From assembly GCA_903851195.1 (NCBI GenBank), contig CAINNJ010000008.1, positions 248,001 to 312,000 on the forward strand: a DNA stretch of 64,000 nucleotides, written 5' to 3'. A model generated the notes under the pieces. The model searched no databases and had not been told where the DNA came from. It worked only from the letters and a program-made list of their open reading frames with translations. Origin of the DNA: an uncultured Acidobacteriia bacterium (lineage in GTDB: Bacteria > Acidobacteriota > Terriglobia > Bryobacterales > Bryobacteraceae). Each line of letters starts with the position of its first letter. The first letter of the stretch is position 1. The translations under genes and the position numbers were made by a program. This document shows, piece after piece, positions 13,663 through 60,912 of this stretch.

Positions 13663-14778
13663 ATGCGATGGCAGAGAGTTCTTCTTTGTGGGGTGTTGGC
13701 GTATGGGATAGCGGCCGGGCAGAGCGGCGGGTTGCGCTCGTTCGAGGTGGTTCCGCTGGAAACGGTGTCGGAAACGTCGTCGAACGCCGGCATCGCCGAC
13801 CTGAACGGTGACGGGTTTCCCGACATCGTGCTGGTGAAGGGGCGGCACTGGCAGGTGACCAGCCGAGTCTTCTTCGGCGACGGGAAGGGGCATTTCACGC
13901 CGGGGCCGCCGCTGCCGAGTCAGGCGACGAAGAGCTACTCGGGGTCGCTGGCGGATATGACGAAGAGCGGACATTTGGACATGGTGCTCAGCAACGATCA
14001 GCCGGATGCGAAGCTGGTGCTGCTCAACGATGGCAAGGGGAATTTCACGATCGGCGGCCGTTATGGCGATCCAAAATGGCCGACGCGCAACGCGGCTGTG
14101 GGGGATCTGAACGGGGATGGTTATCCGGATATCGCGGTGGCGAACCGCAACGCGACCAGCTATGTTTGCATGAACGATGGCAAGGTGCACTTCGAGTGCC
14201 GACCGCTCAAAGATTCGCCCAGCGCCGCGACGGTGGCCATTGCGGATGTGGACGGAGACGGCGCGAACGACGTGATTTACGCGTGCCGGGATGCGTGCCA
14301 GAGCGCCGTTTACTTCAATGACGGGAAAGGCGGGTTTGCGCGGAAGGAGAGTTGGGGACCCGCCGGGTCGTCAACGCGCGCGATGGCGATCGCCGATCTG
14401 GACGGGGACGGCAGGCCGGATATTGCCGCGTGCCATGAGGAGCTGGGCTGCTTTGTTTACTTCAATGAAGGCAAGGGGCGATTCGGCGCCGGGGTCCTGT
14501 TCCAGAAGCCCGCGGCGACGCCGTATTCGATGATTGCCGCGGATCTGAACCGGGACCGGCGGCCGGATCTCGTGGTGGGCTATGTGGACGCGCCGGGGGT
14601 GATTTACTTCAACGACGGCACGGGCCGGGCATACCGGGCGATGCCGTTCGGGGACGGCAAGGGGTCGATTTACGGCATGGCGGCCGGCGATCTGGATGGC
14701 GATGGCTGGCCGGATATTGTGGCCGCGCGGTCGGGCGCGCCGAGTTTCGTGCTGTTCAGCCGGCCGGAAAAGAAGTAG
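13663..14778 (+). CDS. Exported FG-GAP/VCBS repeat beta-propeller protein
   Basis: A roughly 371-residue exported protein made of FG-GAP/VCBS repeats. At least six copies of the calcium-binding motif of the type DLNGDGFPDI are seen, for example DLNGDGYPDI, DLDGDGRPDI and DLDGDGWPDI, spaced about 50-55 residues apart, as in a six- or seven-bladed propeller. The signal peptide ends AAG|Q, putting Gln at position +1. It lacks the ASPIC/UnbV tail of CRTAC1 proteins. I prefer ATG 13663 over the GTG two codons upstream, though no clear ribosome binding site decides. It converges on the M1-like gene with an 18-base gap. Confidence 0.85.
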   Translation: MRWQRVLLCGVLAYGIAAGQSGGLRSFEVVPLETVSETSSNAGIADLNGDGFPDIVLVKGRHWQVTSRVFFGDGKGHFTPGPPLPSQATKSYSGSLADMTKSGHLDMVLSNDQPDAKLVLLNDGKGNFTIGGRYGDPKWPTRNAAVGDLNGDGYPDIAVANRNATSYVCMNDGKVHFECRPLKDSPSAATVAIADVDGDGANDVIYACRDACQSAVYFNDGKGGFARKESWGPAGSSTRAMAIADLDGDGRPDIAACHEELGCFVYFNEGKGRFGAGVLFQKPAATPYSMIAADLNRDRRPDLVVGYVDAPGVIYFNDGTGRAYRAMPFGDGKGSIYGMAAGDLDGDGWPDIVAARSGAPSFVLFSRPEKK

Positions 14779-14796
14779 CGCGGCCGCGGGTTACCG

Positions 14797-16764
14797 CTAC
14801 ACGGCTTCGCGGCTGGCTTCTTTGTAAGGCGTTTTCAGGTATTTGCCGACTTCGTCCTGCGCGCCTTGCGTGTTGTCGCGGGTGCGCTGCGCCTGGGTGT
14901 ATTCGTTGACGGCGCGTTCGCGCTGGCCGGAAATGTCGAAGATCTTGCCCAGGTAGATGTGGGTCCAGACTTCGGTCCATTTCGGCTGCAGATCGCCGTC
15001 AAACACCTGCCGGAATTCGTTGGCGGCCGACTGGTAGTTGTGCTGCAGGAAGAAGATTTCGGCGACGCGGTAGTGCGCCATCGAGCTGTTGCGCTGGGTG
15101 TCGAGCGCCTTCTGGTATTCCTTGAGCGCGTCGGCGAATTCGCTGACCTGAGCGAACTGCTCGCCGCGGCGGATGGCGACTTCGACGCGGACCTGCGGGC
15201 TCATGCGGAGCACTTTATTGCCGGGATCGATGGTGATTTTCTTTGGTTTGCCGAAGGTGTCGACGGAGAATTCCGAAGAAGTCCCCATGACTTCGATGCG
15301 TTTGTCTTCGGGGTTGCCTTCGGTCTCGATATGGAGATCGACGGGCATGCGGAAGGTGTCGAGATCCTGGGCGATTTTGCCCTGGACGCGGAAGCCTTTC
15401 TGCGTGCGGAAAATCGTGTATTCGAGTTTAAATTCGGGTGCGCCGTTCGATTCCACCCACTGGATGAAGAAGTAGCGGAGTTCCTCGCCCATAACGCTTT
15501 CGCAGGCCTTGCGGAAATCCTCGGTGGTGGCGGATTGCCAGGCTTTCTGTTCGAGGAAAAGCTTCAGACCTTTGAAGAATTTCTCGTCGCCCATGGTGCT
15601 GCGCAGCATCTGCATGACGACCGCGCCTTTGCTGGCGCTGAGCGCCCAGTATTCGGGGGAATAGTCTTCGAGGCGAGCGGTCTGGATCAGCGGCACGTTG
15701 TCGACGGTCAGGGCCGTGATGGCGGCGTCTTTCATGCGCTGGTCGAGCGCGGCGGCGCCCTTTTCTTTTTCCAGCCAGAGCGCTTCGGCGTAGAGGGCCA
15801 TGCCGTTTTCCAGCCACATGTGATTGCGATTGACGGGGGAAACATCCACCTGCCACCACTGGCGGGCGATCTGGTTGACCATGACGTTGGTGTTGACGTC
15901 TTTCACGATGGCGTGGGGCGCGAGGAAGAGGATGCCGGGGCCGCAGTAGCCGTTGGGCGCGCCATCGGCGGTTTCAACCACGGTGAGGTTCGCGTAGGGC
16001 GCGAGGCCGAAGACGCCGGTGAAGTGGGAGACGATCTGCGCGGCGGCCGCGCCGTAGGCGTTCGCGAAAGCGGCTTCCCCGCCCCGGAACCAGAGCGTGG
16101 TGGTGATGCCGTCGGTGTTGTTCTTTACGGGCTGGCCTTTCAGGACGGCGATGTCGCCGGGGAAGGACGGCTTGTTGAATTCGAAGGTGGAGACCGCGCC
16201 GCTGGTGGAACCGCTGCCGCTGCCGATGACCTGATAGCCGGCCGGCACGGTGATGTTCATCTTCGAGGTGAAACGGTCCGCCGTATAGCCGCTGACGGGG
16301 AACCAGCGCGAGGGGTAAAGCAGAAAGGTGGAGTCCGGGGAGATCTGGGCGAATTTGATGCCGTAAATGGGCGATTCTTCCTTGCCGGTGAGGCGGCCGT
16401 CATACGTGAAGGTGACCGAGACGGGCTGGCCTTTCGGGAGGCCCTGGGGGAAAGTGAGGCGGACGGTGTTCTCCTGCTGATTGCGGGCGCCGGAGATGGA
16501 CTGGCCGGCGCCATCCACGATCTTCGAGATATTGAGGTTGTTGTTGAGTTCGAAGGTCGCGGAATTGACCTGATCGTCCAGCGGAGTGAAGCGGACGGTC
16601 ACGCGCGCGGCGAGGGTCTGGGTGTCCGGATTCACCTGCGCGTCGATGACGTAGCTTTCCACGTCGATCCGGGACCGTCTCTCCTCGGAATTCTGCGCCA
16701 ACGCGCTTTGTCCGGCCAGCCCCGCGGCCAGCAGGACGCACCCTGCCACGATCGAAAATCTCAT
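14797..16764 (-). CDS. M1-family peptidase fold without catalytic residues (pseudo-peptidase)
   Basis: A 655-residue exported protein with the layout of M1 aminopeptidases: an N-terminal beta domain, a thermolysin-like domain and a helical C-terminal part with a TPR-like stretch (residues 540-640). The zinc signature is gone. Where active members have HExxH followed by QWW, this protein has NQIAR at 297-301 before QWW, and the third ligand Glu is Asn320. The GAMEN substrate loop reads GYCGPG, and the usual catalytic Tyr before KG is missing. Framework residues such as QWW and MWLENG are kept, so the loss is specific. The signal peptide ends ALA|Q. The start overlaps the lpxB stop. Confidence 0.88.
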   Translation of the reverse strand: MRFSIVAGCVLLAAGLAGQSALAQNSEERRSRIDVESYVIDAQVNPDTQTLAARVTVRFTPLDDQVNSATFELNNNLNISKIVDGAGQSISGARNQQENTVRLTFPQGLPKGQPVSVTFTYDGRLTGKEESPIYGIKFAQISPDSTFLLYPSRWFPVSGYTADRFTSKMNITVPAGYQVIGSGSGSTSGAVSTFEFNKPSFPGDIAVLKGQPVKNNTDGITTTLWFRGGEAAFANAYGAAAAQIVSHFTGVFGLAPYANLTVVETADGAPNGYCGPGILFLAPHAIVKDVNTNVMVNQIARQWWQVDVSPVNRNHMWLENGMALYAEALWLEKEKGAAALDQRMKDAAITALTVDNVPLIQTARLEDYSPEYWALSASKGAVVMQMLRSTMGDEKFFKGLKLFLEQKAWQSATTEDFRKACESVMGEELRYFFIQWVESNGAPEFKLEYTIFRTQKGFRVQGKIAQDLDTFRMPVDLHIETEGNPEDKRIEVMGTSSEFSVDTFGKPKKITIDPGNKVLRMSPQVRVEVAIRRGEQFAQVSEFADALKEYQKALDTQRNSSMAHYRVAEIFFLQHNYQSAANEFRQVFDGDLQPKWTEVWTHIYLGKIFDISGQRERAVNEYTQAQRTRDNTQGAQDEVGKYLKTPYKEASREAV

Positions 16765-17909: not shown

Positions 17910-17989
17910 CCTACAGAGTAGCGTCTCCGGCGGGTCGGCCTGTTACAATCAAACCGATTCCCGTTTCACCACACGACCTTACATTGAAG

Positions 17990-24392: not shown

Positions 24393-24430
24393 CGGGCCCG
24401 CTCCGAAAGGGGCGGGCCCGTTTGCGTTTT
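24393..24430. terminator. Strong rho-independent terminator after transketolase
   Basis: A 12-base stem (CGGGCCCGCTCC pairing with GGGGCGGGCCCG, one T-G wobble) with a GAAA tetraloop, followed by TTTGCGTTTT. The structure lies 20 bases after the transketolase stop. Its right flank touches the end of the convergent SGNH gene, so it may serve both transcripts. Confidence 0.9.
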
Positions 24431-25628
24431 ATTTGAAGAGCGCCAGATCGATCGCTTCGCCCATGGCCTGATAGCCGGCGTCGCTCGGGTGCAGCGCATC
24501 GCCGCTGTCGAAGGCGGCTTTGACTTTGTTCGGCGCGGCGGGGTCGCGGACAGCTTTGTCGAAATCGATGAAGCCGTCGAAGCCTTTTCCGCTGCGGATC
24601 CAGACGTTCACGGCATCGCGGACCTTTGCCTTTTCCGCGGTCCAGTAGCCGCGTTTGATGTTGGCCTCGCCTTCGAACGGAGTGATGGTGGCGAGGATCA
24701 CGCGGATGCCCTTCTCGTGAGCGCGTTCGATCATCTGGGTGAGTCCGGCGATGATGTCTTCCGCGGTGACCGTTTCCGAGGCGGGCGCGGAGGAGCCGGC
24801 GTGGCCAATGTCGTTGATGCCTTCGAGAATCACGAGGTATTTCACGCCCGGCTGCGCGAGCACGTCGGAATCGAAGCGGGCAAGCGCGTTGATGCCGAAC
24901 TGCGGACGTTTGGAGGCCGCGCCTTCGTGGAGAATGCGGTTGCCGCCGATACCCATGTCCACGACGGCGAGTTTGGAACCGGCTTTGCGCAGGCGCGCGG
25001 CGAGGGTATCGGGCCAGCGGTGATTGGCGTCCACTGTGGAGCGCGCGCCGTCGGTGATGGAGTCGCCAAACGCCACGATCGAGCTGGTGGAGGCCGGGGC
25101 GAGGACATCCACGCCGGTCAGAAAGGCCCAGGAGGTGATCGGCTTCGGATTGTTCAGCGTGGCGGCGTTCGTTACGTTGCCGGCGGCGAGCCAGGAGGTC
25201 TGCTGGGACGAGGCATGGAAGCCCGCGCCGAGGACGTCGCCGGGCAGGTAGAGGCTGATGGCCAGGTCGGCGGCGGCGGGCACGGTGAGCTTGACGGGAT
25301 CGCTGAGGACGACGGCGCCGGCGGGGATCTGCACGCGCGTCCTGCCGCTGAAGGTAAGGGTCTTGTCAGACGCTGCGACGACGGACGCGCCCGATTCGCG
25401 GAGGGCGAGATGCGCGGCGCCGATGTCCACGGGCTCGGGACCGAAGGCGTTGGAGAGCCGCACGCGCACGGTGTCGCCGCCGATGCTGACGTGGACGATT
25501 TCGCGCAGGGTCTGGTCGTGGAAGCGGACGTCGGGCTGAGGCGCGGGGGCGGCGGCCCAGGTGCCGACCCAATGTGTCTGCGCGCTGAGCGAGAAGGCCA
25601 GCGCGGCTGTGAGAAGAATTGTTTTCAT
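24429..25628 (-). CDS. Exported SGNH/GDSL hydrolase
   Basis: A 399-residue exported esterase-like enzyme. The signal peptide ends LSA|Q. A beta-rich N-terminal domain of about 170 residues (starting THWVGTWAAAPAPQ) precedes the SGNH core: FGDSITDG (catalytic Ser), GIGGNRIL (block II Gly), LEGINDIGH (block III Asn), and DALHPSDAGY with catalytic Asp and His. This domain order is found in carbohydrate esterases acting on acylated sugars. It is last of a three-gene minus-strand block with an SDR and a ThDP enzyme. Confidence 0.9.
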   Translation of the reverse strand: MKTILLTAALAFSLSAQTHWVGTWAAAPAPQPDVRFHDQTLREIVHVSIGGDTVRVRLSNAFGPEPVDIGAAHLALRESGASVVAASDKTLTFSGRTRVQIPAGAVVLSDPVKLTVPAAADLAISLYLPGDVLGAGFHASSQQTSWLAAGNVTNAATLNNPKPITSWAFLTGVDVLAPASTSSIVAFGDSITDGARSTVDANHRWPDTLAARLRKAGSKLAVVDMGIGGNRILHEGAASKRPQFGINALARFDSDVLAQPGVKYLVILEGINDIGHAGSSAPASETVTAEDIIAGLTQMIERAHEKGIRVILATITPFEGEANIKRGYWTAEKAKVRDAVNVWIRSGKGFDGFIDFDKAVRDPAAPNKVKAAFDSGDALHPSDAGYQAMGEAIDLALFK

Positions 25629-35183: not shown

Positions 35184-37631
35184 TTACCGTCTGAGGACGC
35201 TCCAGCCGGGATCGAGCACCGCTTTGGCCGAGGGGGCGGCGACGCTGACCGTGAACTGGACAGGTTCGGAACTGGTGCGCACCAGTTGCACGACGGTCTT
35301 CCCACGCACCGACTGAATCTCCACCGGGACAGGAATGCTGTAGTCGTCGGGAACTTCGGTCTGGGTGACGGTGCCGGTCAGCTTGTAGGCGCCGGGCTTG
35401 CCCTTCACGAAATAGGTCAGCTTGAGGGCCGGGACGCCGGTGCCGTAGACCCACTGGTCGAAGAAGGCTTCGAGTTTGGGATCGGGCGAGCCGGGCGGCA
35501 GGAACTCGGCGCAGAGGGCACGGAACGCCTCGGTGTCGAGAGTTTTCCATTCGTAGCGTTTGCGCAGTTCGGCCAGCATTTTCAGGAAGCGCTCGTCACC
35601 CAGGCGGCGGCGCAGCATGTGGATGATCCAGGTGCCCTTGCCGTAGAGGACGGCGGTGGAGGCGTTCGGGTTGTTGGAGCCTTCGAGGCGGCGGCCCTGG
35701 ACCACGGGGCCTTCGGATTCCGCCGTTTCGCCGTCGGGGCCTCGGAGGAAGAGCTCTTTACGGTACATATCCAGAGCCATTTCCGAGGCCTTCGGGCCGG
35801 TCTTTTTCTCGGCGGACATGACGGTTTCCATGTACATGATGGCCGAGTAATTCGCCAGCGCTTCCATGAGCCACTCGTGGTGATAAGAACCGGAGGCGAC
35901 GATATTGCCCCACCACTGGTGCGCCACTTCGTGGGCGAGCAACAGGTCGCGGAAGAAGGTCTGCTCGCGGACGGTGCTGGCCGCGCCCAGGCTTTCCAGA
36001 TAGTTCAGGGTGGGCAGGTAGATCATGCCGGAAAAGCCCTGGCCGAACTTGCCGGGAACCGGCGAGACTTCAATTCTTTTGAGCGGCGGATCGCCGAAGC
36101 GGGCGCGGTAAAACTCGGTGGCGGCGTCCACGTGGGTGGCCAGGCGGGTGAGCTGGTTGACCGTGTTGGGAACGGGAACGGGAGCGGTCGGTACCAGAGT
36201 GTCGGAGCCGCCTGCCATGGGACTGCGCCGCCGGGTCATGTGGTTCAGGTCGGGGATCGCAAGGGGCACGTCCACATTGGGGCGGGGACGGAGGGCGTCT
36301 TCCAGCTGCTTATTGGCGCAGATTTCGATGGTGATGCCGGCGCGTTCCAGTTCCTTGCGCTGGTACTGGCCGAGGTTGAAGCCGAGCAGGCGAACCGGCC
36401 CGTCGGGGACGCGCCGCATCACGCGCTGGTCGCCCTCGATGCGGTCTTCAACCACTTTGCCGGCGGAAACCAGATCGAGCGTTTTGGGGAAGCGGTAAGT
36501 GACATCGAAAGTCGCGAACTGCAGCCCGCGATTGGGGTACCAGGCGCCGCGCGCGCTGACGAAGTAGACGTCGTGACCCGATTCGAGAATGACCTTGCCT
36601 TCGTGCGTGATTTCGAGTTCGTGTTCCGAGCCGGGCTCAAGCGGCTGAGGCGGCAGCACCAGCAACAGTTCGTTGCCGGTATTCTGCACCAGACCGGTGC
36701 GGAGCGATTCCCGTTCGTAGACTTCGGCGGGAACACCGTCGATCTTCGCGGCGGTGGCCCGCATGCGACCGGAAAGATCGAGCGGGATGACGTTGCGCGA
36801 CTCTTCGGTGGCGCGAATGCGGATGCGGGTGACGCAGTGGAGGGAAAGCGCGTCGTCGAGCGTGGCAGTGATTTGATAGCTGAGAATCTGCTGTTCCGGG
36901 CGGGGTGAGGGGCGGCCTTTATGACTGCGGCTGACGAAGCTCGACCAGGTGTCCCACCAGCTGCGCCCGTCGCGGTTCGTGACCTGGCCTGCCACCATTT
37001 GCTCATAGGCGCGGGCGTCGGCAATGATATCGAAGTTGCCGAGTTTGTTGCCCTGGATGACGGCTTCGAAAAAGCCGGGATGCGCGCCGGGGGTGAGCAG
37101 GTCGAGCACGATGCGGGACTCGAAGCCCTGCAGCAGGTTCATGACGACGGAGTTCCAGCGGGCGGACATGACGGCGCCGAGGTCCGGCGCCTTTTTGGCG
37201 TCGGCGGCGCGGACCTGTTCGAGCAGCAGTTTGGCGGTTTCGTCGGTGAAGATGAAGGCGGCCTGGCTGAAGTGCTCGTTGAGATTGGGAGCGCCTGTGT
37301 AGGCGGCCATGGAGTGGCGCTCGGAACGGTCCGGCGGGAGCAGCAGAACTTCGGCGTCGCCGCCATCGGTGTCGGCGGAAAAGACGGCGGTCAGGGGAGC
37401 GCCGTTCACGGGCTTGCCGAACATGAGATAGCCGTCCGTGAGGTAGATGCGGGCTTCGTCCTGGGTGATTTCGATGTCGCGGATGCGGTAGCATTCGGCC
37501 GGATCGAGACCGGCGGCGAGGACCTGACGGCCCAGTTCCGCGGCACGGTTCTGTGCGGGGGGCGTTTGCGCGGCGGCGGGCGGGACGAAGGCCAAGACGG
37601 GGGTCAGGACCAGCAAGGCGAGGCGTTTCAC
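35184..37631 (-). CDS. M1-family aminopeptidase, catalytically intact
   Basis: An 815-residue exported metallopeptidase. The signal peptide ends AAA|Q, so Gln22 is predicted at +1. Residues 20-240 are an extra N-terminal region not found in minimal M1 enzymes. The catalytic site is complete: HEVAH at 567-571 followed by QWW, and Glu590 at the standard 18-residue spacing as third zinc ligand. The Met/Gly-rich GMIYLP segment lies where GAMEN usually sits. GTG 37631 follows a GGAG site. Contrast the second M1 fold in this window (14797-16764), which has lost all these residues. Confidence 0.9.
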   Translation of the reverse strand: MKRLALLVLTPVLAFVPPAAAQTPPAQNRAAELGRQVLAAGLDPAECYRIRDIEITQDEARIYLTDGYLMFGKPVNGAPLTAVFSADTDGGDAEVLLLPPDRSERHSMAAYTGAPNLNEHFSQAAFIFTDETAKLLLEQVRAADAKKAPDLGAVMSARWNSVVMNLLQGFESRIVLDLLTPGAHPGFFEAVIQGNKLGNFDIIADARAYEQMVAGQVTNRDGRSWWDTWSSFVSRSHKGRPSPRPEQQILSYQITATLDDALSLHCVTRIRIRATEESRNVIPLDLSGRMRATAAKIDGVPAEVYERESLRTGLVQNTGNELLLVLPPQPLEPGSEHELEITHEGKVILESGHDVYFVSARGAWYPNRGLQFATFDVTYRFPKTLDLVSAGKVVEDRIEGDQRVMRRVPDGPVRLLGFNLGQYQRKELERAGITIEICANKQLEDALRPRPNVDVPLAIPDLNHMTRRRSPMAGGSDTLVPTAPVPVPNTVNQLTRLATHVDAATEFYRARFGDPPLKRIEVSPVPGKFGQGFSGMIYLPTLNYLESLGAASTVREQTFFRDLLLAHEVAHQWWGNIVASGSYHHEWLMEALANYSAIMYMETVMSAEKKTGPKASEMALDMYRKELFLRGPDGETAESEGPVVQGRRLEGSNNPNASTAVLYGKGTWIIHMLRRRLGDERFLKMLAELRKRYEWKTLDTEAFRALCAEFLPPGSPDPKLEAFFDQWVYGTGVPALKLTYFVKGKPGAYKLTGTVTQTEVPDDYSIPVPVEIQSVRGKTVVQLVRTSSEPVQFTVSVAAPSAKAVLDPGWSVLRR

Positions 37632-40118: not shown

Positions 40119-41249
40119 ATGAAAATCTGGCTTATCGGTTCCTTCGCGGCACTTGGTTTAATTGCGGGCGTATGGGCGCAGGAAGGTCCGCAGCAGCAGG
40201 GCAGCGAGACGGTCGCGAGACCGAGGAAGAAGGCGGATTCTTCGAAACCCGCCGATGCCGATCCGGCCGATCTGCCGAAGATCCCCTCAAAGCTCGGTCC
40301 GAAAGTAAAGGACGAGGCGACAGCCGGCGGCGACGTCAGCTTCAAGGCGGAAACGAATATCGTCAACGTCGATGTCGCGGTGCTGGACAACAAGGGCGTG
40401 CCGATTCCGAAAATTCCGCGCGGCAATTTCCGTATTCTGGAGGACAATGTCCCGCAGACGGTGACGCAGTTCTCCATGGGCCAGGCGCCGATGACCGTGT
40501 CGCTGGTGATCGAGTTCAGCAACCGTTTTCAGTCCTATTGGGGACAGGGATGGTACGAGACACTTTCCGCGGCGTACGGGTTCACACAGACGCTGCGTCC
40601 GGACGATTACATCGCCATCATCGCTTACGATCTGCGGACGGAAATTCTGGCGGATTTCACCAATGACAAGAGCAAAATTCAGGAGGCGATGAGCCGCCTG
40701 CGAATCCCGGGCTTTTCCGAAAGCAATATGTTCGACGCCATCACGGACACGGCGGACCGGATGACGAAGATCGAAGGCCGGAAGGCGATTGTTCTAATCA
40801 CGTCCGGCATCGATACCTTCAGTAAGCTGACCTACGATAAGACGCGTAAGAGCCTGCAGGAGAGCGGCATTCCCGTCTACTCCATCGGCATTTTGCAGTT
40901 GGCGCGACAGATGGCGGAGGCGCGCGGCGGCAATATGATCGACTTTCTGCAGGGCGATAACGAACTGCGGACGTTCGCCAAGGAAACGGGCGGCCAGGCA
41001 TTCTTCCCCCGGTTTATGGCGGAAATGCCCAATGCTTTCTATGCGATCAACCAGGCGCTGCGCAATCAGTATTCTCTGGGTTATTCGCCTACCAATCAGG
41101 CGCGCGACGGCAAGTTCCGGAAGCTGACGGTGCAGCTGGTGAATCCGGCGACCAACGAACCTCTCAAAGTGACGGATGAGAAGGGGAAGCCGATCAAATA
41201 CCAGATCATCGCGAAGGCGGGATACAAAGCGCCGCTGCCTGTGGAATAG
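40119..41249 (+). CDS. Exported VWFA-related acidobacterial-domain protein
   Basis: A 376-residue exported protein of the acidobacterial VWFA-related family. The signal peptide ends VWA|Q, so Gln21 is predicted as the first mature residue. A Lys/Pro-rich linker precedes a beta domain (VDVAVLDNKGVPI, RILEDNVPQ) and then a von Willebrand factor A domain (about 155-310). The metal-binding DxSxS motif is degenerate: LVIEFSNRFQ has Glu for Asp and Asn-Arg at the end. The C-terminus ends with a strand-rich part (SLGYSPTNQARDGKFRKL). These proteins occur in large numbers in Acidobacteriota; none has a firm role that I know. Confidence 0.9.
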   Translation: MKIWLIGSFAALGLIAGVWAQEGPQQQGSETVARPRKKADSSKPADADPADLPKIPSKLGPKVKDEATAGGDVSFKAETNIVNVDVAVLDNKGVPIPKIPRGNFRILEDNVPQTVTQFSMGQAPMTVSLVIEFSNRFQSYWGQGWYETLSAAYGFTQTLRPDDYIAIIAYDLRTEILADFTNDKSKIQEAMSRLRIPGFSESNMFDAITDTADRMTKIEGRKAIVLITSGIDTFSKLTYDKTRKSLQESGIPVYSIGILQLARQMAEARGGNMIDFLQGDNELRTFAKETGGQAFFPRFMAEMPNAFYAINQALRNQYSLGYSPTNQARDGKFRKLTVQLVNPATNEPLKVTDEKGKPIKYQIIAKAGYKAPLPVE

Positions 41250-41350
41250 TCCCTGGGCAGCCGCCCGGAGCTAAGCACATGTAGCGTACGGGCAGAGAAG
41301 CCCGAAGTCAAGGATTACATTCCCCACGGTTTCAGGGGGATGCAGATCCG

Positions 41351-41379
41351 TTGACAGGTCCGTGACGGCTCTGTTACGT
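41351..41379 (+). promoter_or_regulatory. Sigma-70-like promoter upstream of a response regulator
   Basis: TTGACA (41351-41356) and TTACGT (41374-41379) are 17 bases apart, 16 bases before the ATG of the response-regulator gene. The -35 is perfect, the -10 poor. The short leader leaves little space for other control. Confidence 0.45.
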
Positions 41380-41395
41380 TCGGTTCGTCCCCTCA

Positions 41396-41842: not shown

Positions 41843-41889
41843 CTTTTCCTTTCGCTGCTGCCATCTCCCTTGCCCCATTCAGGGCCGTC

Positions 41890-43707: not shown

Positions 43708-43737
43708 GATCCCCGGATAAGATAAAAGCTCCGCCCG

Positions 43738-44502
43738 ATGCGAATACTGATTCTTGCGATCGCCCTCGCGACCTGGTCGTGTGGAGGCAGCCCGCCGCCC
43801 GAAGTGCAGGAGTACGGATACGAAGTGGTGCACGCTTATCCGCACGACGCCGGGGCGTTCACCGAAGGCCTGTTTTATCTCGACGGTTATCTTTACGAGA
43901 GCACCGGGATGGAGCGGCAGTCGTCGGTCCGCAAGGTACGTCTGGAGACCGGCGAAGTGCTGCAGAAGCACGATCTGCCGGAGCAGTATTTCGGCGAAGG
44001 AATCGTGGCGTGGAAGGACCGGGTGATTCAGCTCACCTATAAGTCGCAGGTGGGCTTCGTGTACGACCTGGGCGGCTTTCAGGTACAGCGGCAGTTCGAG
44101 TATCCGGGCGAAGGCTGGGCCATGACGCAGGACGACAAGCGCATTATCATGAGCGACGGGACGCCGGAACTGCGCTTCTGGGATCCGGAGAGTCTCCAGG
44201 AAAAGGGCCGCGTCACGGTCACGGAGTTCGGGCAGCCGCTGAAGAACGTCAACGAGCTCGAATACATCAAAGGCGAGATCTACGCGAACGTGTGGCTGAC
44301 GAACCGCATTGTCCGCATCGATCCGGCGACGGGCAAGGTGACGGGCTCCGTCGATCTGACGGGTCTGCTGAAGGCCGGCGACTTCGTGGAAGGGCAGACG
44401 GATGTGCTCAACGGAATCGCATATGATGCGAAGGGCGATCGTTTGTTCGTCACGGGCAAACGCTGGCCCAAACTGTTCGAAATTCGCCTCGTAAAAAAAT
44501 AG
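43738..44502 (+). CDS. Glutaminyl-peptide cyclotransferase (plant/bacterial beta-propeller type)
   Basis: A 254-residue exported enzyme that converts N-terminal Gln of proteins into pyroglutamate. It belongs to the five-bladed-propeller class known from papaya and Xanthomonas. Key residues are present: AFTEGLFY (Glu43), YFGEGIVAW (Glu87), VNELEYI (Asn172-Glu173) and DVLNGIAYD. The N-terminus is a signal peptide with a possible, weak lipobox (WSC). It lies 30 bases after the GH3 gene and 10 bases before a dehydrogenase whose predicted mature N-terminus is Gln. Many exported proteins in this window begin with Gln after cleavage, so it likely serves the whole periplasm. Confidence 0.92.
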   Translation: MRILILAIALATWSCGGSPPPEVQEYGYEVVHAYPHDAGAFTEGLFYLDGYLYESTGMERQSSVRKVRLETGEVLQKHDLPEQYFGEGIVAWKDRVIQLTYKSQVGFVYDLGGFQVQRQFEYPGEGWAMTQDDKRIIMSDGTPELRFWDPESLQEKGRVTVTEFGQPLKNVNELEYIKGEIYANVWLTNRIVRIDPATGKVTGSVDLTGLLKAGDFVEGQTDVLNGIAYDAKGDRLFVTGKRWPKLFEIRLVKK

Positions 44503-44512
44503 GAGTTTCCCG

Positions 44513-46822
44513 ATGCCGATCAAGGCCGCGGCCCTGTGCTGCGTGGTTTTCGCCGTCCCCGCGCTGGCGCAGAATTCGCATCCGGCGGGTCAGGACATGA
44601 CGCCCGGACAGCGGCTTTTCGTGGACAACTGTTCCACGTGTCACGGCGCGGATGCCAAAGGCGCGCGCGGGCCGGATCTCACATCCGGCAAGTGGCTGCA
44701 CGGCAGCAGCGCGGCCGAGATTGCGCGCAATATCCACGACGGTATCGCGGGCACGGGTATGCCGGCGGTTCCGTTGCCGGATAACCAGCCGCGGCTGATT
44801 GCCGACTGGCTGCTGGCGATTACGCGCGGCTCGGACGAACAAGCCGCGGGGGATGTGAACGCGGGGCGCGCGGTGTTCTTCGGCGCGGGTGGCTGTTCGG
44901 GCTGCCATGCGGTGCAGGGCGCGGGGCGCGGGTTCGGACCGGATCTGACGGCGATCGGGCAACAACGGTCGGTGGCGGATCTGACGCGGGCGATCACGCA
45001 GCCCGGGGAGAACGCGCGCGGGGGCAATCGCGGCGCGGAAGTGAAAACGGCGGACGGCAAGACCGTGCGCGGCGCCATCGTCATGGAGAATTCGTTCTCT
45101 CTTTACCTGCGGGACAGCGCGGAGAAGCTTTATCTGTTATCGAAGGCGGAGATTCGGTCGCGGCAGGATGTGAAGTCGCTGATGCCGAAGATCGCGCTGG
45201 AGCCAAAGCAGGTGAACGATCTGGTGGCGTTCCTGAAGCAGCCTTCGGGCGTGGAACACGATCTTTCCGTCTGGAAGCCGGCGGACGATTTCAACGTCAC
45301 CTGGGACCGCCTGAAGAACTCCGCCGCCGAGCCGCGCAACTGGCTGCACTACTGGGGCGACCTGCAGGGGACGCACTACAGCGGGCTGCAAGCGATCACG
45401 CCCGCCAATGTTTCGAAGCTCGCCGCGCAGTGGACGTACCAGTTTGGCGGCGGCAACGTGGAAGTGACGCCGCTGGTGGTGGACGGTCTGATGTTCGTGA
45501 CGGGTCCGCGCGACAACGCGGCCGCGCTGGATGCACGCACGGGGACACCGATCTGGCGGTACCGGCGACCACTGCCTGAGTTCCACGCGAACTGCACGGT
45601 GTCGACCAACCGCGGCTTCGCGGTGCTGGGCGACCGGCTGTTTCTGGGCACGCTCGACACGCATCTGGTTTCGCTCGACGCGAAGAGCGGGCGGGTGATC
45701 TGGGACATTGCGGTGGACGACTACAAGGTCGGCTTCTCGATCACCCATGCGCCGCTGGTGGTGGGCGATAAGATCATCGTCGGCGTGACGGCGGGCGAGT
45801 GCGCGCTTTATGGGTTCCTGGACGCGTATGACGCGAAGACCGGGAAGCGGCTGTGGCGGGTGCAATCCATCGCGCAGCCGGGGGATCCGAACCGCGCGAC
45901 GTGGGCGGGCAAGTCGGCCGAAACGGGCGGCGGGCCGACGTGGATGACCGGCACCTACGACCCGGAGACCGACACCATTTTCTGGGGCACCGGGAACCCC
46001 TCGCCCGATTACAACGGTTCGGTTCGGGAGGGCGATAACCTCTACACGAACTGCGTGCTGGCTCTGGATCCGGCGACGGGCCGCCGCAAGTGGTTCTTCC
46101 AGTTCACCCCGCACGACACGCACGACTGGGACGCCTCGGAGACGCCGGTGCTGATCGATGCAGTGTTCCAGGGCAAGCCGCGCAAGCTGCTGCTGCATGC
46201 CGACCGCAACGCGTTTTTCTACGTGCTGGACCGCGAGACCGGCGAGTTCCTGCTGGGCAAGCCGTTCACGCGGCAGACCTGGGCGAAGGGCCTGGACGCG
46301 AAGGGCCGGCCCATCGTGATTCCCAACACGGACCCGACGCCCGAGGGCAATTACGTCTGTCCCGATGCGACGGGAGGCACGAACTGGGATTCGCCCAGTT
46401 ACGATCCGAAGACGAAACTGCTGTATATCGGCGCACGGGATTCCTGCGCGATTTACAAGAGCGTCACGAAGCCTCCCGTGCCCGGCGCGCCGTACACGGG
46501 GACGGGCGATCAGGCGGATGAATCGATCGGCGGCAAGGGCGTGTTAACGGCCATCGATCCCTTTACCGGGGATGTTCGCTGGAAGTACACGCTGCAGCAG
46601 GGTTCGGCTTCGGCGGGCGTGCTGGGGACGGCGGGGGGCGTGTTGTTTGCGGCGTCGAAGGAAGGGTTTTTGCTGGGGCTCGACGCGCGGGCCGGGAAGC
46701 TGCTTTGGAAGTACCAGACAGGGTCTGAGATTCGTGCTTCGCCGATGGCTTTTGCGGTGGACGGGAAGCAGTACGTGGCGATTGCGAACGACGCGGCGTT
46801 GATGGTTTTCGCTCTGCCTTAG
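44513..46822 (+). CDS. PQQ-dependent quinohaemoprotein dehydrogenase with two cytochrome c domains
   Basis: A 769-residue periplasmic enzyme. The signal peptide ends ALA|Q20. Two cytochrome c motifs lie at the N-terminus (CSTCH 40-44, CSGCH 128-132), an inverted order compared with the usual C-terminal cytochrome of quinohaemoprotein alcohol dehydrogenases. From about residue 265 there is an eight-bladed PQQ propeller with tryptophan-docking repeats such as LDARTGTPIWRYRR and LDAKSGRVIWD. The stretch HDTHDWDASETPVL contains the catalytic Asp. No adjacent Cys-Cys pair of classical alcohol dehydrogenases is seen. An AGGAG lies eight bases before the ATG. Confidence 0.9.
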   Translation: MPIKAAALCCVVFAVPALAQNSHPAGQDMTPGQRLFVDNCSTCHGADAKGARGPDLTSGKWLHGSSAAEIARNIHDGIAGTGMPAVPLPDNQPRLIADWLLAITRGSDEQAAGDVNAGRAVFFGAGGCSGCHAVQGAGRGFGPDLTAIGQQRSVADLTRAITQPGENARGGNRGAEVKTADGKTVRGAIVMENSFSLYLRDSAEKLYLLSKAEIRSRQDVKSLMPKIALEPKQVNDLVAFLKQPSGVEHDLSVWKPADDFNVTWDRLKNSAAEPRNWLHYWGDLQGTHYSGLQAITPANVSKLAAQWTYQFGGGNVEVTPLVVDGLMFVTGPRDNAAALDARTGTPIWRYRRPLPEFHANCTVSTNRGFAVLGDRLFLGTLDTHLVSLDAKSGRVIWDIAVDDYKVGFSITHAPLVVGDKIIVGVTAGECALYGFLDAYDAKTGKRLWRVQSIAQPGDPNRATWAGKSAETGGGPTWMTGTYDPETDTIFWGTGNPSPDYNGSVREGDNLYTNCVLALDPATGRRKWFFQFTPHDTHDWDASETPVLIDAVFQGKPRKLLLHADRNAFFYVLDRETGEFLLGKPFTRQTWAKGLDAKGRPIVIPNTDPTPEGNYVCPDATGGTNWDSPSYDPKTKLLYIGARDSCAIYKSVTKPPVPGAPYTGTGDQADESIGGKGVLTAIDPFTGDVRWKYTLQQGSASAGVLGTAGGVLFAASKEGFLLGLDARAGKLLWKYQTGSEIRASPMAFAVDGKQYVAIANDAALMVFALP

Positions 46823-53588: not shown

Positions 53589-56045
53589 TCACCAGGAGAA
53601 GCGGACCTGCACACGCCGGTAAGTCGCATCGTCGGGAAAACGCACCAGCAGGCGGCCGTTTTCCAGCGTGGCGCCGTCGATTTTTGCGGGACGGCGGGCG
53701 AAGCGAACATCGACTTGCGCCACAGTGCCGCCAGTGCCCTCCAGTTCGAAGCCGTCTCCGGACTGCGCCAGCAGCTTCGGGCCGGTGGTTGCCGCGCCCG
53801 GAGCCGGGAGTTCCGCCGGGAGTCCGATCTCAAAGGCCGGCAACGCGACCTCCAGGCGGTGCGTGCGGGCCGACACGGGTGTGCAGTCGGGGCCGCTGGT
53901 AAGGCACAACTGTTGGGGCGCGGCCGAGGAGGCTTCCACGACCATTCGCCCGGTCTCGCGGCGGAAGGTCAGATCGAAGCTGTCCGGGCCGACGCGGACA
54001 TGCCGCAGCGAGGCGCTGTCCCACGTCACCGGAAGCTGCGGGCGAACGCGGAGCGTGTGCCGCAGTGCGTCCGCTTCCACGCCGAACAGGCCGCGGACAG
54101 CCGGCGTGACGACCATCGCGGAGGACCAGAGCTGGTGCGAACTGCTTCGCCCGAACGGCTGAAAGAACTCGCCCGACAGCAGTTCCGTCACGGCGCCCAG
54201 GTCCTGCGTAAACGTCATCCCCGCGTTTTGCATGAGGTGCGCGTAACCGGCGAAGGGGCGGCCGGCCCGATACTCGGCGAGCGCCATCCAGCCCGTGTAG
54301 AGCGGCCAGACGGAACCCTGGTGATAACTGATCGGGTCATAGATGGGTTCGGCGCGGCTGACGTCGCGCACGCCCCAATCGGTGGAGAATTCCGGCGACG
54401 CCCAGCGTTCGAACATGCCGTCCGCGTTCGGCAGTTGCAGCGTGCCGTCCCACCAGGCGATCGACGGGAACGATGTGGCGGTGCGATCCGTGGAGCCATC
54501 GGCATTGCGGCTGAACGCATAGAATTTGTGGGCGCCGTCGAAGTATTCGGGCGCGAGCGCGGCTTCGATCCGGCGTGCCTGGGCGCTCGCGGAGGCAGCC
54601 AGCGCGGGCTCCCGCATCGTCTCCGCCAGTTTCGCCATGGCGGTGCACGATTGCTGGTCGAGGGCGGCCAGATAAATTTCCTGATGCGGCATGCCGGTAG
54701 GCCAGCTTTCCACCCAGCCGGTGCCTTCGGTGTTTTCGTAGATGCCGTCGCCATCGGAATCGTGGGCGCGCGTGAAGGCCCAGGCCCGCTTCAGTTCGGC
54801 CCAGTGCTGCCGCAGGAAGGCGACGTCGCCGCTGCCGCGAATGTAGTCCCAGGCGGTCATCAGCAGCAGCGGGGTGGAATCGGCGGCGGCATAGAAGTAG
54901 GGCGTGGCCTTCCAGTCCACCAGATCGGCGGTCTGGGAGAATTCGTGCATGATTTTGCCGTCGGCCCGCTGCCGGTTGAGAAGGAATTCGAGCGCGCGGC
55001 GGCTGAGGGCGAAATCGCCATAGCTGTGGGCTGCGTAGAGGGTGAACAGCGTATCGCGTCCGAAAAACCAGCCGAAACCGGGGCGCGCGGAATCGGCGGA
55101 GGAGTAGTAGCCCGCGATCAGTCCGGTCTCGATGTGAAAACGCACCTGCGCCTGATCGATGGCGAGTTCCGCCCAGCGCATGGCCAGATTGAAAGCGGCG
55201 TCCGGCGATTCGACGAGCAGCCGGTTATCGAAGAAGTGCGCATAGTATTCGGAGGTCCGCTGGTATTGCCGGGGCCAGTCGGCCTGCATGGCGAGCAGTT
55301 TGGCGGCGACCTCGGATGAACTCGCGCCGGCCGTCATGAGCAGCGGGAAAAATTTGCCGGACTGCGTTTTCGGATCGAACGGGAGTTTCAGTTCCAGCGG
55401 GTAAGTGCGCGGGCGTTCCTGATAAGGCGCGAGAATGCCCGGCAGAGCGCCGGGGATGCCGACCGCGCCCAGCAGTGTTTCGTTGTCGGTATGCAGGATG
55501 TAATAACCGCTGGCCTCCTTTTGGACCCACTCGGCGGAGGGAAGGCCGAAGTTCGGCGCCGGCCACATCCGCAACATATCCGGGGTGAAGCGAAAAGTCA
55601 GCGTCAGAGGGCGGACCGAGGCGATTTCGAAAAAGACTACGGGGCCCGTCGCGCTTTCTCCGCGCCCGGAGAACATGTGCTGCTTCACGGTGAACGCGGC
55701 GTGCGAGTACGTGATGGTGGTGTGATCGGGATGGACGTCGATCGCAGCCGCGTATTCATTCAACTCGATCGGCACGGGATATCCGGCGAGTTCCGCGGTA
55801 ATTCGGAAATGGCTGGCGATTTTCACCGGAAAAGCCCAGGCTTCAAAGGTGCCATCGCCCTGACCGAAGACGGCGCCGGCCTCGCCCGCCACCGTGAACG
55901 GATTGTGCGGATGAGCCGCGCGCGAGATGGCGATCGGGCTCGCGGGGAGCGGGAAAGCGTGGGTCGATTGCCAGGCGTCCTGAGCGTCGAGGGAGTGCAG
56001 CGCCCCGAACAGGAGCAACCATATCAGTGTGTGACGCATCATCAC
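53589..56045 (-). CDS. Exported alpha/alpha-toroid glycoside hydrolase
   Basis: An 818-residue exported enzyme. The signal peptide ends LDA|Q. Residues 25-290 are a beta-sandwich domain, and residues 300-690 form an (alpha/alpha)6 barrel related to glycogen-debranching/amylo-1,6-glucosidase-type and GH15/GH63-like enzymes (GFGWFFGRDTLFTLYAAHSY, DSDGDGIYENTEGTGWVESW, PISYHQGSVWPLYTGWMALA). Acidic residues in FGRDT and EGTGWVES are candidate catalytic groups. It lies 13 bases after the CRTAC1 gene stop. Its sugar specificity cannot be decided from sequence. Confidence 0.82.
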   Translation of the reverse strand: MMMRHTLIWLLLFGALHSLDAQDAWQSTHAFPLPASPIAISRAAHPHNPFTVAGEAGAVFGQGDGTFEAWAFPVKIASHFRITAELAGYPVPIELNEYAAAIDVHPDHTTITYSHAAFTVKQHMFSGRGESATGPVVFFEIASVRPLTLTFRFTPDMLRMWPAPNFGLPSAEWVQKEASGYYILHTDNETLLGAVGIPGALPGILAPYQERPRTYPLELKLPFDPKTQSGKFFPLLMTAGASSSEVAAKLLAMQADWPRQYQRTSEYYAHFFDNRLLVESPDAAFNLAMRWAELAIDQAQVRFHIETGLIAGYYSSADSARPGFGWFFGRDTLFTLYAAHSYGDFALSRRALEFLLNRQRADGKIMHEFSQTADLVDWKATPYFYAAADSTPLLLMTAWDYIRGSGDVAFLRQHWAELKRAWAFTRAHDSDGDGIYENTEGTGWVESWPTGMPHQEIYLAALDQQSCTAMAKLAETMREPALAASASAQARRIEAALAPEYFDGAHKFYAFSRNADGSTDRTATSFPSIAWWDGTLQLPNADGMFERWASPEFSTDWGVRDVSRAEPIYDPISYHQGSVWPLYTGWMALAEYRAGRPFAGYAHLMQNAGMTFTQDLGAVTELLSGEFFQPFGRSSSHQLWSSAMVVTPAVRGLFGVEADALRHTLRVRPQLPVTWDSASLRHVRVGPDSFDLTFRRETGRMVVEASSAAPQQLCLTSGPDCTPVSARTHRLEVALPAFEIGLPAELPAPGAATTGPKLLAQSGDGFELEGTGGTVAQVDVRFARRPAKIDGATLENGRLLVRFPDDATYRRVQVRFSW

Positions 56046-57789: not shown

Positions 57790-57802
57790 ATCGGGGGCCT
57801 CG

Positions 57803-59023
57803 TTATTTCTTCCGGCGGATATTCTTCGCCTGTTCCGCTTCTTTCTTTTCCTTGATGCGGGCACCCTCGGCGAAAGCAAGTTTGCTTCCTTCCGTGTCGC
57901 CCTGCGAACGCAGAACCTGGCCGATCATATTCGACGGACCGGGATCTTCCGGCAACAGCCGCGCGGCTTCGCGGAGGGCTTTCAGGGCGCCGTCCAGATC
58001 GCCCTTCTGCTTGAGCGCGGAACCGAGAAGATAGTGCGCCTGCCCATACTCCGGCCGTTGCGCCACGGCGGCCTGCATCTGCTTCGCGGTCTCCTCGTAA
58101 TCCCCCAGTTGCCAGTTCGTCATGCCGAGCGTGTAGTGCGCTTCGGGCAGATTGTCATCCAGGCGGATGGCTTCGAGGAACTCTTTTTTCGCGCCCTCCA
58201 GATCGTCCTGCTGCTTCAGAGACAGACCCAGATCGTAGTGCGCGATCGGCGAACTGTTATCGATCTTCAGCACGTCGCGGAACTGCTGCTCCGCCTTTCG
58301 ATAATCTCCGGTCTGCAGGTGCGTGAAACCGATATTCACCATCGCGTCGGTATTTTTTCCATCGCTTTGCAGCACCTTTTCGAACTGTTCGATGGCTTTC
58401 ACGGGCTCGCGCAACTGCACCAGCGTGAAGCCGTAACTGTTGCGTACGCGCAGATCGGCCGGATTCAGTTCCAGCGACTTCGCGTAGGCGTCGCGCGCTT
58501 CGGGCAGCGCCGCCGTTTGCTGCAGCGCGTCGCCCAGAGAGCCCCAGGCGGAAGCGTTGCGGGGATCGGTCTGCACGGCGGCTTTCAGTTCGGTAACGGC
58601 CTCCGGAAAGTGCGAAACTTCATAGAACGAGAGCCCCAGTTTCAGGTGGTAATCGGCCACGCGAGGGGCGAGGCGCACGGCGGTCTGCAGCAGCGGAATC
58701 GCCTGGTTCGGATCCTTCGCCAGCCAGTAGAGCACACCCAGATGAAATGCCGCGGGCGCATAGTCTGGCTGCAGTTGCAATGCCCGCTCGAAGTGCGGTT
58801 TCGCTTCGGCCGCACGGTTCAGCACGGCCAGAAGGAAGCCGCGCTCGTCTTCGATTTCGGCGGAACGCGGGTCGGCCGCGGCCGCTTTGTCCATGAAGGC
58901 CAGCGCGCCGGCCGCATCCCCGCGACTCTTCAGTGCCTCCGCCTGCTGACGGAACTGTGCGGCGGTCTGCCCGTGCGCGGCGAGGCAAAACAGCGCTCCA
59001 ACGAAGAGAATACGACGACCCAT
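57803..59023 (-). CDS. Exported TPR-repeat protein
   Basis: A 406-residue exported protein. The signal peptide ends AHG|Q19. At least ten tetratricopeptide repeats fill the rest, with the usual pattern seen in YAPAAFHLGVLYWLAKDPNQ, ASAWGSLGDALQQTAALPEA and PEAHYTLGMTNWQLGDYEET. It is the first of four co-oriented genes (TPR, CRTAC1, glycosidase, beta-helix lyase). A scaffold role for these exported partners is plausible. The C-terminus is basic. Confidence 0.9.
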   Translation of the reverse strand: MGRRILFVGALFCLAAHGQTAAQFRQQAEALKSRGDAAGALAFMDKAAAADPRSAEIEDERGFLLAVLNRAAEAKPHFERALQLQPDYAPAAFHLGVLYWLAKDPNQAIPLLQTAVRLAPRVADYHLKLGLSFYEVSHFPEAVTELKAAVQTDPRNASAWGSLGDALQQTAALPEARDAYAKSLELNPADLRVRNSYGFTLVQLREPVKAIEQFEKVLQSDGKNTDAMVNIGFTHLQTGDYRKAEQQFRDVLKIDNSSPIAHYDLGLSLKQQDDLEGAKKEFLEAIRLDDNLPEAHYTLGMTNWQLGDYEETAKQMQAAVAQRPEYGQAHYLLGSALKQKGDLDGALKALREAARLLPEDPGPSNMIGQVLRSQGDTEGSKLAFAEGARIKEKKEAEQAKNIRRKK

Positions 59024-59083
59024 CACCCTGGTCCTCAGTATATCGGGAAGAACCGAACCCGATACAATATCGGGCACGTCCTC

Positions 59084-60406
59084 ATGCACCGCAGCCAGGC
59101 CCATCGAACCGCACCCCTGATCGCCCTCCTCACTTCGCTCTGTGCGTCCGCGCAGACTCCGCAATACGATCTGCTGTTGCAGGGCGGCCGGGTGATCGAC
59201 GCGAAAAACAATCTGAGCGCGGTGCGCGACGTGGCAATCCTCGACGGCAAAATCGCGGCGGTGGAAACGAAAATCGATCCGGCGCGCGCGCTGAAAACCG
59301 TCAATGTGGCCGGACTTTATGTCACGCCCGGCATCGTCGACATCCACGTGCATGTTTACAACGGCACCGGGGAGCGCGGTTCCTACGCGGGGGATCTCAG
59401 CGTCCCGCCCGACGGTTTCACCTTCCGCACCGGCGTCACGACGGTCGCCGACGCCGGTTGCGCGGGCTGGCGCAATTTCGAGGATTTCAAACAGCGCATC
59501 ATCGATCGTTCGAAAACACGCGTGCTCGCGTTCCTCAACATCGTGGGCAACGGCATGCGCGGCGGGAAATTCGAGAGCGATCTGAACGATATGGAAACCA
59601 AGCCGGCGGCGGAGATGGCGCAGAAGTACAAAGACGTGATCATCGGGATTAAGACCGCGCACTTCACCGGCCCCGAATGGACGCCCGTGGAGCACGCCGT
59701 GGAAGCCGGGACGATCGCCAACATCCCCGTGATGGTGGATTTCGGTTCCGATAAACCCGAGCGTCCCATCGGCCAGCTGCTTACGGCGAAACTCCGCCCC
59801 GGCGATATCTACACGCACTGCTACTCGGGCTTGCGGCATGAGCTGGACGATTCCGGCAAACTGAATCCGGCGCTGTTCCAGGGCCGCCAGCGCGGCGTGT
59901 TTTTCGATGTTGGCCAGGGCGGCGGCAGCCTCGCGTATCCGGTCGCCGTGGAAGCGCTGAAAGAGCGCTTCCTGCCCGATTCCATCTCGACCGACCTGCA
60001 CACCGCGAGCATGAATTCGGGCACCAAAGACATGCTGAATCTGATGAGCGAGTTCCTCGCCCTGGGGCTTTCGCTCGACGATGTGGTGCGGCGCGCCACG
60101 TGGAATCCGGCGCGCGAGATTCACCAGGAATCTTTGGGGAATTTGTCCGTGGGCGCACCTGCCGATGTCGCGGTGCTGAGCCTGCAGACCGGCAAGTTCG
60201 GTTTCGCCGATATGTATGGCGCCCGGCTGAAAGGCACGAAACGCCTGCAGTGCGAACTGACTCTGCGCGCCGGCAAGGTGGTTTACGATCTGAACGCGAT
60301 CTCCCGGCCGGACTGGGAGACGCTGCCGAAGGGCTATCGCAACACGGCGGACCCGCGCTGGGACGCTGTCAGCCCCGTCCGCGTTCGGCGAGCGCCCACA
60401 CCGTAG
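59084..60406 (+). CDS. Exported amidohydrolase/deacetylase-family metallohydrolase
   Basis: A 440-residue exported amidohydrolase. The signal peptide ends ASA|Q24. The metal motif VDIHVHVYNG lies near residue 86, a carboxylated-lysine candidate in IGIKTAH, His in YTHCYSG and the catalytic Asp in STDLHTASM. This set fits the amidohydrolase/deacetylase branch, and homologues of its closest type are exported. The RidA-type gene follows after 47 bases on the same strand. Confidence 0.88.
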   Translation: MHRSQAHRTAPLIALLTSLCASAQTPQYDLLLQGGRVIDAKNNLSAVRDVAILDGKIAAVETKIDPARALKTVNVAGLYVTPGIVDIHVHVYNGTGERGSYAGDLSVPPDGFTFRTGVTTVADAGCAGWRNFEDFKQRIIDRSKTRVLAFLNIVGNGMRGGKFESDLNDMETKPAAEMAQKYKDVIIGIKTAHFTGPEWTPVEHAVEAGTIANIPVMVDFGSDKPERPIGQLLTAKLRPGDIYTHCYSGLRHELDDSGKLNPALFQGRQRGVFFDVGQGGGSLAYPVAVEALKERFLPDSISTDLHTASMNSGTKDMLNLMSEFLALGLSLDDVVRRATWNPAREIHQESLGNLSVGAPADVAVLSLQTGKFGFADMYGARLKGTKRLQCELTLRAGKVVYDLNAISRPDWETLPKGYRNTADPRWDAVSPVRVRRAPTP

Positions 60407-60453
60407 CACCCACACAGTAAATGTCCGGTCAGTAAACTGGAAGGAGCCTTCGA

Positions 60454-60912
60454 ATGAACACCAACAGCAGACGCAAATTTCTCGGCCGCACCGCCGTGGC
60501 CGCCACCGCTGCCGCAGCCGTCGCGACGCCCGCCGCGGCGCAGGAAAAGCCGGTCAAACGGGTGATCCGCAAGGGCCCGAAGCCGGAAAAGACGCCGCTG
60601 TTCAACGGCACGGTGGCGTACGGCAACCTGCTGTTCATCGCGGGTGTGGGATATCACAAAGAAGGCGATATCAAGGTGCACACCAAAGCGGTGCTCGACC
60701 AGATTAAAGACCAGCTGGAAGCCGCCGGATCGTCCATGAACAAGGTGCTGAAGTGCAACGTGTACCTGAACGATCTGAAAGATTATGCGGCAATGAACGA
60801 AGTCTTTCTGGGCAGCTTCGGCGACGAACCGCCGGTCCGCACCACCATCGCGGCGCCCGGCGGCATCCCCGGCAATTCGCTGGTGGAAATCGACGTCATC
60901 GCCTGCATTTAA
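60454..60912 (+). CDS. Tat-exported RidA-family protein
   Basis: A 152-residue RidA protein with a twin-arginine signal (NSRRKFLGRTAVAATAAAA) ending AAA|Q30. The core matches RidA: LLFIAGVGYHKEGDI, VLKCNVYLNDLKDYAAMNEV and PPVRTTIAAPG, in which the Arg that binds the substrate carboxylate is kept. RidA proteins usually act in the cytosol on reactive imines, so an exported copy is unusual. It lies between the amidohydrolase and a thioredoxin gene. A GGAG precedes the ATG. Confidence 0.92.
   Translation: MNTNSRRKFLGRTAVAATAAAAVATPAAAQEKPVKRVIRKGPKPEKTPLFNGTVAYGNLLFIAGVGYHKEGDIKVHTKAVLDQIKDQLEAAGSSMNKVLKCNVYLNDLKDYAAMNEVFLGSFGDEPPVRTTIAAPGGIPGNSLVEIDVIACI

Follow-up and report, generated by a model that had tools for sequence, protein, structure and literature searches.

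Glutamine enrichment directly after the signal peptidase I site of exported proteins in a Bryobacteraceae genome and other Acidobacteriota

Introduction

Do Acidobacteriota follow a Q-rule, in which exported proteins begin with glutamine (Gln) once their signal peptide has been removed? The question is raised by a 64,000-nucleotide stretch of an uncultured soil bacterium of the Acidobacteriia, family Bryobacteraceae (contig C8 [CAINNJ010000008.1], positions 248001-312000; hereafter the window), in which a sequence-only reading placed Gln directly after the predicted signal peptidase I (SPI) site, i.e. at position +1, in ten of about 17 exported proteins, noted a glutaminyl cyclase (QC) gene among them, and likened the pattern to the Q-rule of Bacteroidota. 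Here, we report that Gln is over-represented exactly at +1 across the sampled part of this genome, as it is in a majority of the other genomes of the phylum that we sampled, and that the genome encodes candidate QCs of two classes.

The published comparison of phyla covered Bacteroidetes, Chlorobi, Spirochaetes, Chlamydiae, and Cyanobacteria (PMC5837995), and a 2023 mBio paper describes the trait as occurring ‘exclusively in the Bacteroidetes phylum’ (PMC10653852); the string ‘Acidobacteri’ is absent from the main texts of both. A search of open-access titles and the starts of abstracts, a scope that leaves subscription papers and preprints aside, returned no description of a Q-rule in Acidobacteriota.

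Glutamine at +1 across the genome

The window belongs to a genome of 7.72 Mb in 67 contigs, which we sampled through the window and 37 further stretches (759 kb, about 10% of the genome). Genes were called with a home-made caller and signal peptides with a home-made scorer that is blind to the residue at +1, supplemented by motif searches; a score of at least 5 was the standard cut-off for an SPI substrate, and a score of at least 4 the looser one. The scorer works with preset site weights, and transmembrane anchors are among the false positives that it lets through; an additional filter against membrane anchors, likewise blind to +1, was applied to some counts.

Gln occupied +1 in 35 of 102 predicted SPI substrates, compared with 54 of 1122 residues (4.8%) at positions +2 to +12 (Fisher p 1e-17), so that the genome-wide frequency, as tested on this tenth of the genome, is not near background. 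Two further negative controls were drawn from the same genome: Gln was found at 5 of 61 false sites in proteins with multiple transmembrane segments, and it followed 95 of 2979 (3.2%) internal [AVS]xA motifs in 378 proteins for which no signal was predicted. The latter count led us to reject an artefact of base composition or codon usage. Shifting the cut-off gave 40/134 at a score of at least 4 and 21/69 at a score of at least 6, and the anchor filter gave 30/76 (confidence interval 29-51%); any false positives left in the sample would make such counts underestimates. The six residues most enriched at +1 include neither Glu nor Asn. Within the window, seven of 11 SPI substrates carry Gln at +1, and outside it 28 of 91 do, for which reason an enrichment confined to the window was rejected; Gln at +1 is more frequent in the window than in the genome on average, and that average itself exceeds the controls some six- to nine-fold.

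The likeness to a Q-rule thus holds insofar as Gln at +1 is position-specific, retained among homologues, seen genome-wide and across the phylum, and accompanied by QC genes with intact catalytic residues (see below). It does not extend to the strength of the rule: with a Q-value of about 34-39%, Gln is not in the majority at +1 before or after filtering, compared with an average of 71% for the Bacteroidetes phylum (PMC10653852).

Other Acidobacteriota and control organisms

Ten other QC-bearing Acidobacteriota genomes (G175, G276, G229, G205, G221, G213, G115, G172, G270, and G144) carry Gln at +1 in 71 of 176 SPI substrates. It is the commonest +1 residue in all ten, with frequencies from 4/17 to 6/7 per genome, and remains so in each of the eleven QC-bearing genomes when that of the window is included (106/278 in total). 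Gln also peaks at +1 in each of the ten; the lesser values seen in several genomes at -2 (at most 23%, in G276) or +2 probably reflect placement of the site by the predictor two or three residues off. G276, which belongs to the same family as the window, presents a separate peculiarity: the sole QC found in it is of the animal type (C1:271419-272222) and has one in-frame TGA, yet Gln is at +1 in 8 of its 22 substrates.

As a positive control, two metagenome-assembled genomes (MAGs) of Bacteroidota gave 14/18, consistent with the 71% in the literature (PMC10653852). Escherichia coli gave 1/16, Rhodanobacter and Caulobacter 3/20, and loci of Xanthomonadales 2/29. The pool of E. coli with the QC-bearing Rhodanobacter, Caulobacter, and Xanthomonadales amounts to 6/65, leaving out three Sphingomonas loci and, as near-duplicates from Xanthomonas species, six of the 17 Xanthomonadales loci; the full set of 17 gave 8/81 at a score of at least 4. 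Small groups outside this pool were Caulobacterales (0/10), Verrucomicrobia (0/6), delta-type proteobacteria (0/8), and Methanothrix (0/3), one locus (L026) being counted in two of the locus sets. The acidobacterial strength, at about 40%, lies between that of E. coli and that of Bacteroidota.

Retention of glutamine among homologues

We compared 114 homologous pairs drawn from 73 exported proteins, at identities of at most 70% and with the QC itself left out. The two partners share their +1 residue in 57 pairs, comparable to the -3 (62) and -1 (72) residues; elsewhere between -8 and +10, the number of pairs with identical residues is 7 to 21, +9 (38) aside. Of the 97 pairs in which at least one protein carries Gln at +1, 52 have it in both; for the remaining positions of that range taken together, Gln is shared in 2 of 114 cases. 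These pairs are non-independent, one 12-member family alone having ten members with Gln. Grouped into 23 families, three are entirely of the Gln kind, 14 are mixed, and six are without Gln. That Gln is kept at +1 in several unrelated families suggests a general benefit.

Glutaminyl cyclases of the genome

The beta-propeller (plant-type) QC that the sequence-only reading had recognized in the window is indeed present, as an intact gene at 43738..44502 on the plus strand, matching PF05096 over its full length (E 2e-97; 325.7 bits against a curated cut-off of 22.3) and, among solved structures, 3mbr best (E 5e-90). Equivalents of papaya QC residues E69, N155, and K225 are kept in an alignment counted by hand (their roles are taken from PMC5837995), and the protein is accordingly a predicted member of this class, similar in length of match and in these residues to Protein Data Bank (PDB) entries 3mbr and 2faw/2iwa (the latter from papaya). 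It has Glu in place of Gln24, as does the Xanthomonas enzyme described in PMC5837995. It differs from 3mbr and 2faw/2iwa in its N-terminus, which reads ...ATWSC/GG (a slash marks the predicted cleavage site here and below) and contains a possible, atypical lipobox (TWSC). The position in papaya QC that we take to be Trp83 is aligned with Tyr in the hand-counted alignment. Relatives in loci L075 and L019 have TWAC and FCAC, respectively, so that all three may be lipoproteins, and relatives from Terriglobales resemble SPI substrates at their N-termini.

The closest named relatives of the window QC come from Candidatus Solibacter, Bryobacteraceae, and Bryobacterales MAGs. Its neighbourhood, in which VWFA, GH3, and QC genes follow one another (40119-44502), is repeated in a Bryobacterales MAG (L075:1037-5010; VWA 90% and GH3 66% identical), and this is the only one of 61 QC loci in which VWA and GH3 genes precede the QC. 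Genes for beta-propeller QCs of 48-53% identity also stand on contigs named Methanothrix or Methanosaeta, i.e. archaea (L057, L060, L064, L066, and L070), perhaps as a result of transfer.

The earlier assignment of the cyclase to the beta-propeller class holds for the window and is incomplete for the genome, which also encodes a predicted QC of the animal type (M28 fold) outside the window. This 299-residue protein (L084:1477-2373 = C25:585907-586803, minus strand in L084) matches PDB 7d18 best (E 2e-58); that entry bears the name Peptidase M28, and many of the PDB matches that follow it are named QC. By eye, equivalents of human D159, E201/E202, D248, and H330 are present, and the zinc ligands, general base, and WHT motif are shared with animal-type QCs (PDB 7d18, 7d17, Drosophila 4fbe, and human 2afm); by closest solved relatives and these residues, it would be assigned to this class. 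Position 202 is Glu, as in the human enzyme, whereas most Bacteroidetes orthologues have Asp (PMC5837995). Its N-terminus (ARS/QQPAAS) resembles that of an SPI substrate rather than a lipoprotein, unlike the animal-type QCs used for comparison. Both QCs of the genome carry an N-terminal signal-like segment and are therefore predicted to be exported.

Among 297 Acidobacteriota genomes, 103 have a beta-propeller QC (107 if four PF05096 hits with E-values above 1e-10 are counted), 99 have an M28-type match, 44 have both, 158 have at least one, and 139 have neither. M28-type here means a match to L084 at E <= 1e-30, and the cyclase identity of these matches is putative. At E <= 1e-15, the genome of the window has 16 M28 matches, the QC included.

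Exported proteins of the window

In all ten exported proteins named in the sequence-only reading, Gln does stand at +1 behind a plausible signal peptide. For eight of them, the site was recovered through gene calling; those of the TPR protein and the amidohydrolase, divergent neighbours that the gene caller had fused, were recovered through a motif search. Ten of about 17 corresponds to a binomial p of 9e-10 against the Gln rate at +2 to +12 in the same genome and of 5e-7 against the pooled proteobacterial rate at +1.

On the plus strand are an FG-GAP protein (13663..14778; ...YGIAAG/QSGGLRSF; Pfam FG-GAP_3), a VWFA protein (40119..41249; ...IAGVWA/QEGPQQQG; Pfam VWA), whose homologue in L075 keeps Gln (...VGALA/QEGPAQQG), a PQQ dehydrogenase with cytochrome c (44513..46822; ...AVPALA/QNSHPAGQ; Pfam PQQ and Cytochrom_C), an amidohydrolase (59084..60406; ...LLTSLCASA/QTPQYDLL; Gln codon at 59153; start counted by hand; Pfam Amidohydro_3 in frame), and a protein with a Tat-type signal peptide that the sequence-only reading called RidA (60454..60912; ...VATPAAA/QEKPVKRV). 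On the minus strand are an SGNH/GDSL esterase (24429..25628; ...AFSLSA/QTHWVGTW; Pfam Lipase_GDSL_2), an M1 peptidase with HEVAH at residue 567 (35184..37631; ...VPPAAA/QTPPAQNR; Pfam Peptidase_M1), which is the one M1 gene of the window with a zinc motif, an M1-like protein without HExxH (14797..16764; ...QSALA/QNSEERRS; Pfam Peptidase_M1), a glycosidase (MGH1-like; 53589..56045; ...LHSLDA/QDAWQSTH; Pfam MGH1-like_GH), and a protein named TPR in the same reading (57803..59023; MGRRILFVGALFCLAAHG/QTAAQFRQ; Gln codon at 58969; start counted by hand). The M1-like protein at 14797-16764 has TPR matches and is likely a non-catalytic relative of the M1 peptidase at 35184-37631. Residues other than Gln are at +1 in the proteins at 4103, 12709, 19269, 50665, 51623, and 56059, a count from which the GH3 and TlpA-like N-termini are left out.

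Selection, capping, and alternative explanations

On balance, we consider it probable that Acidobacteriota have a moderate Q-rule, in which selection keeps Gln at +1 in about 40% of exported proteins and a QC in the envelope caps it as pyroglutamate, blocking aminopeptidases. Cleavage of Sec or Tat substrates by SPI would expose Gln as the first residue; in QC-bearing genomes, it would then be cyclized by an exported QC, either beta-propeller or M28-fold, or by both; and the resulting pyroglutamate cap would block envelope aminopeptidases. We infer these steps by analogy with Porphyromonas gingivalis, in which QC is essential and cyclization has been proposed to protect proteins against aminopeptidases (PMC10653852); a QC may likewise be the selective reason for Gln at +1.

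Several observations weigh against this account. Four Acidobacteriota genomes with neither QC class (QC-null) have Gln at +1 in 9 of 27 substrates (G010 4/7, including two apparent paralogues; G026 0/4; G018 3/8; G028 2/8), and a relaxed search for M28-type QCs gave no match in G010 or G026; G018 and G028 yielded weak matches only, located within long open frames. Among the stretch samples, QC-bearing genomes without that of the window (71/176) do not differ from QC-null ones (9/27; p 0.53), nor do they with it after anchor filtering (96/223 vs 9/24; p 0.67). TonB receptors have Gln at +1 in 10 of 19 cases in QC-bearing genomes vs 9 of 38 in 14 QC-null genomes, a contrast with p 0.04 when counted per sequence and 0.24 when counted per genome. 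(These are the 19 of 26 and 38 of 50 N-termini that score at least 5 and are not called more strongly as lipoproteins; cut-offs of 4.5 and 6 gave 12/21 vs 9/38 and 8/15 vs 8/35, respectively. Four of the 14 QC-null genomes were re-searched at the relaxed threshold, and ten rest on searches at the standard one.) Around QC genes, named Bryobacter and Solibacter loci have Gln in only 2/13 and other named acidobacterial loci in 11/42, both at a score of at least 4, and Xanthomonadales loci, with the same QC class, are so poor in Gln that the presence of a QC alone was rejected as its cause. QC-null genomes carry M28 peptidases too (up to 11 matches), so that the aminopeptidase argument does not discriminate here, and active-site residues alone cannot separate M28-type QCs from aminopeptidases (PMC5837995). 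Finally, three QC-bearing Sphingomonas loci gave 7/14 at a score of at least 5, which fits the continuum of Q-values described outside Bacteroidetes (PMC5837995); L054 contributes 0/4, L047 and L051 have genes in common, and a Q-rule-like pattern is possible in this alphaproteobacterial genus. Because Gln is enriched where neither QC class is found, the link to QC is weaker than the sequence-only reading assumed, and a dependence of Gln on QC is suggestive only. QC-null genomes may contain a divergent or third QC.

The persistence of Gln in QC-null genomes, among substrates and receptors alike, and its retention among homologues at a level similar to -3 and -1 would also be expected if the export or signal peptidase machinery favoured Gln at P1', or if Gln were preferred there on structural grounds, in either case irrespective of cyclization and with QC serving other purposes. 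We regard this as unlikely, given that receptor Gln is about twice as frequent with a QC (albeit not significantly by genome), that Glu and Asn are outside the most enriched +1 residues, and that the same pattern is tied to cyclization in Bacteroidota (PMC5837995; PMC10653852). Still less credible to us is that QCs serve only certain secreted proteins or peptides, few in number, with Gln at +1 otherwise mostly cyclizing spontaneously or remaining uncyclized: spontaneous cyclization is known (PMC5837995) and some bacterial lineages with a QC, such as the Xanthomonadales, show no visible Q-rule, but the retention of +1 Gln across several unrelated families speaks for a wider role. An artefact of signal-peptide prediction, base composition, or window choice could be suspected from a home-made predictor with preset site weights and anchors among its false positives; as that predictor is blind to +1, the multi-transmembrane, internal-motif, and E. 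coli counts are low, the Bacteroidota count is high, and Gln is frequent outside the window, we deem it highly improbable.

A selected and capped Gln, our preferred explanation, has a bolder extension, which we find doubtful: that the Q-rule is phylum-wide in Acidobacteriota and persists in lineages with neither QC class, owing to an undescribed third cyclase or to some cause of N-terminal Gln that came before cyclization. Genomes with both QC classes and QC-null lineages offer a natural experiment on whether capping drives the sequence or the sequence preference came first. A Q-rule here would lead one to expect exoenzymes capped with pyroglutamate in a phylum abundant in soil, with consequences for protein stability and for the way soil metaproteomes are searched by mass spectrometry.

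Comparison with the Q-rule of Bacteroidetes

Acidobacteriota would be a second major phylum with a graded Q-rule, contrary to the exclusivity stated for Bacteroidetes (PMC10653852). In both phyla, Gln stands right after the SPI site in many protein families, and a plant-type or animal-type QC is encoded (Bochtler 2018, PMC5837995; Szczesniak 2023, PMC10653852). The strength differs, at about 34-45% in Acidobacteriota vs the 71% average of Bacteroidetes. Both QC classes co-occur in 44 of 297 acidobacterial genomes, and, unlike in the Bacteroidetes system, Gln at +1 is enriched also in genomes without a recognized QC. Pyroglutamate belongs to the Bacteroidetes Q-rule, whereas in Acidobacteriota it is predicted.

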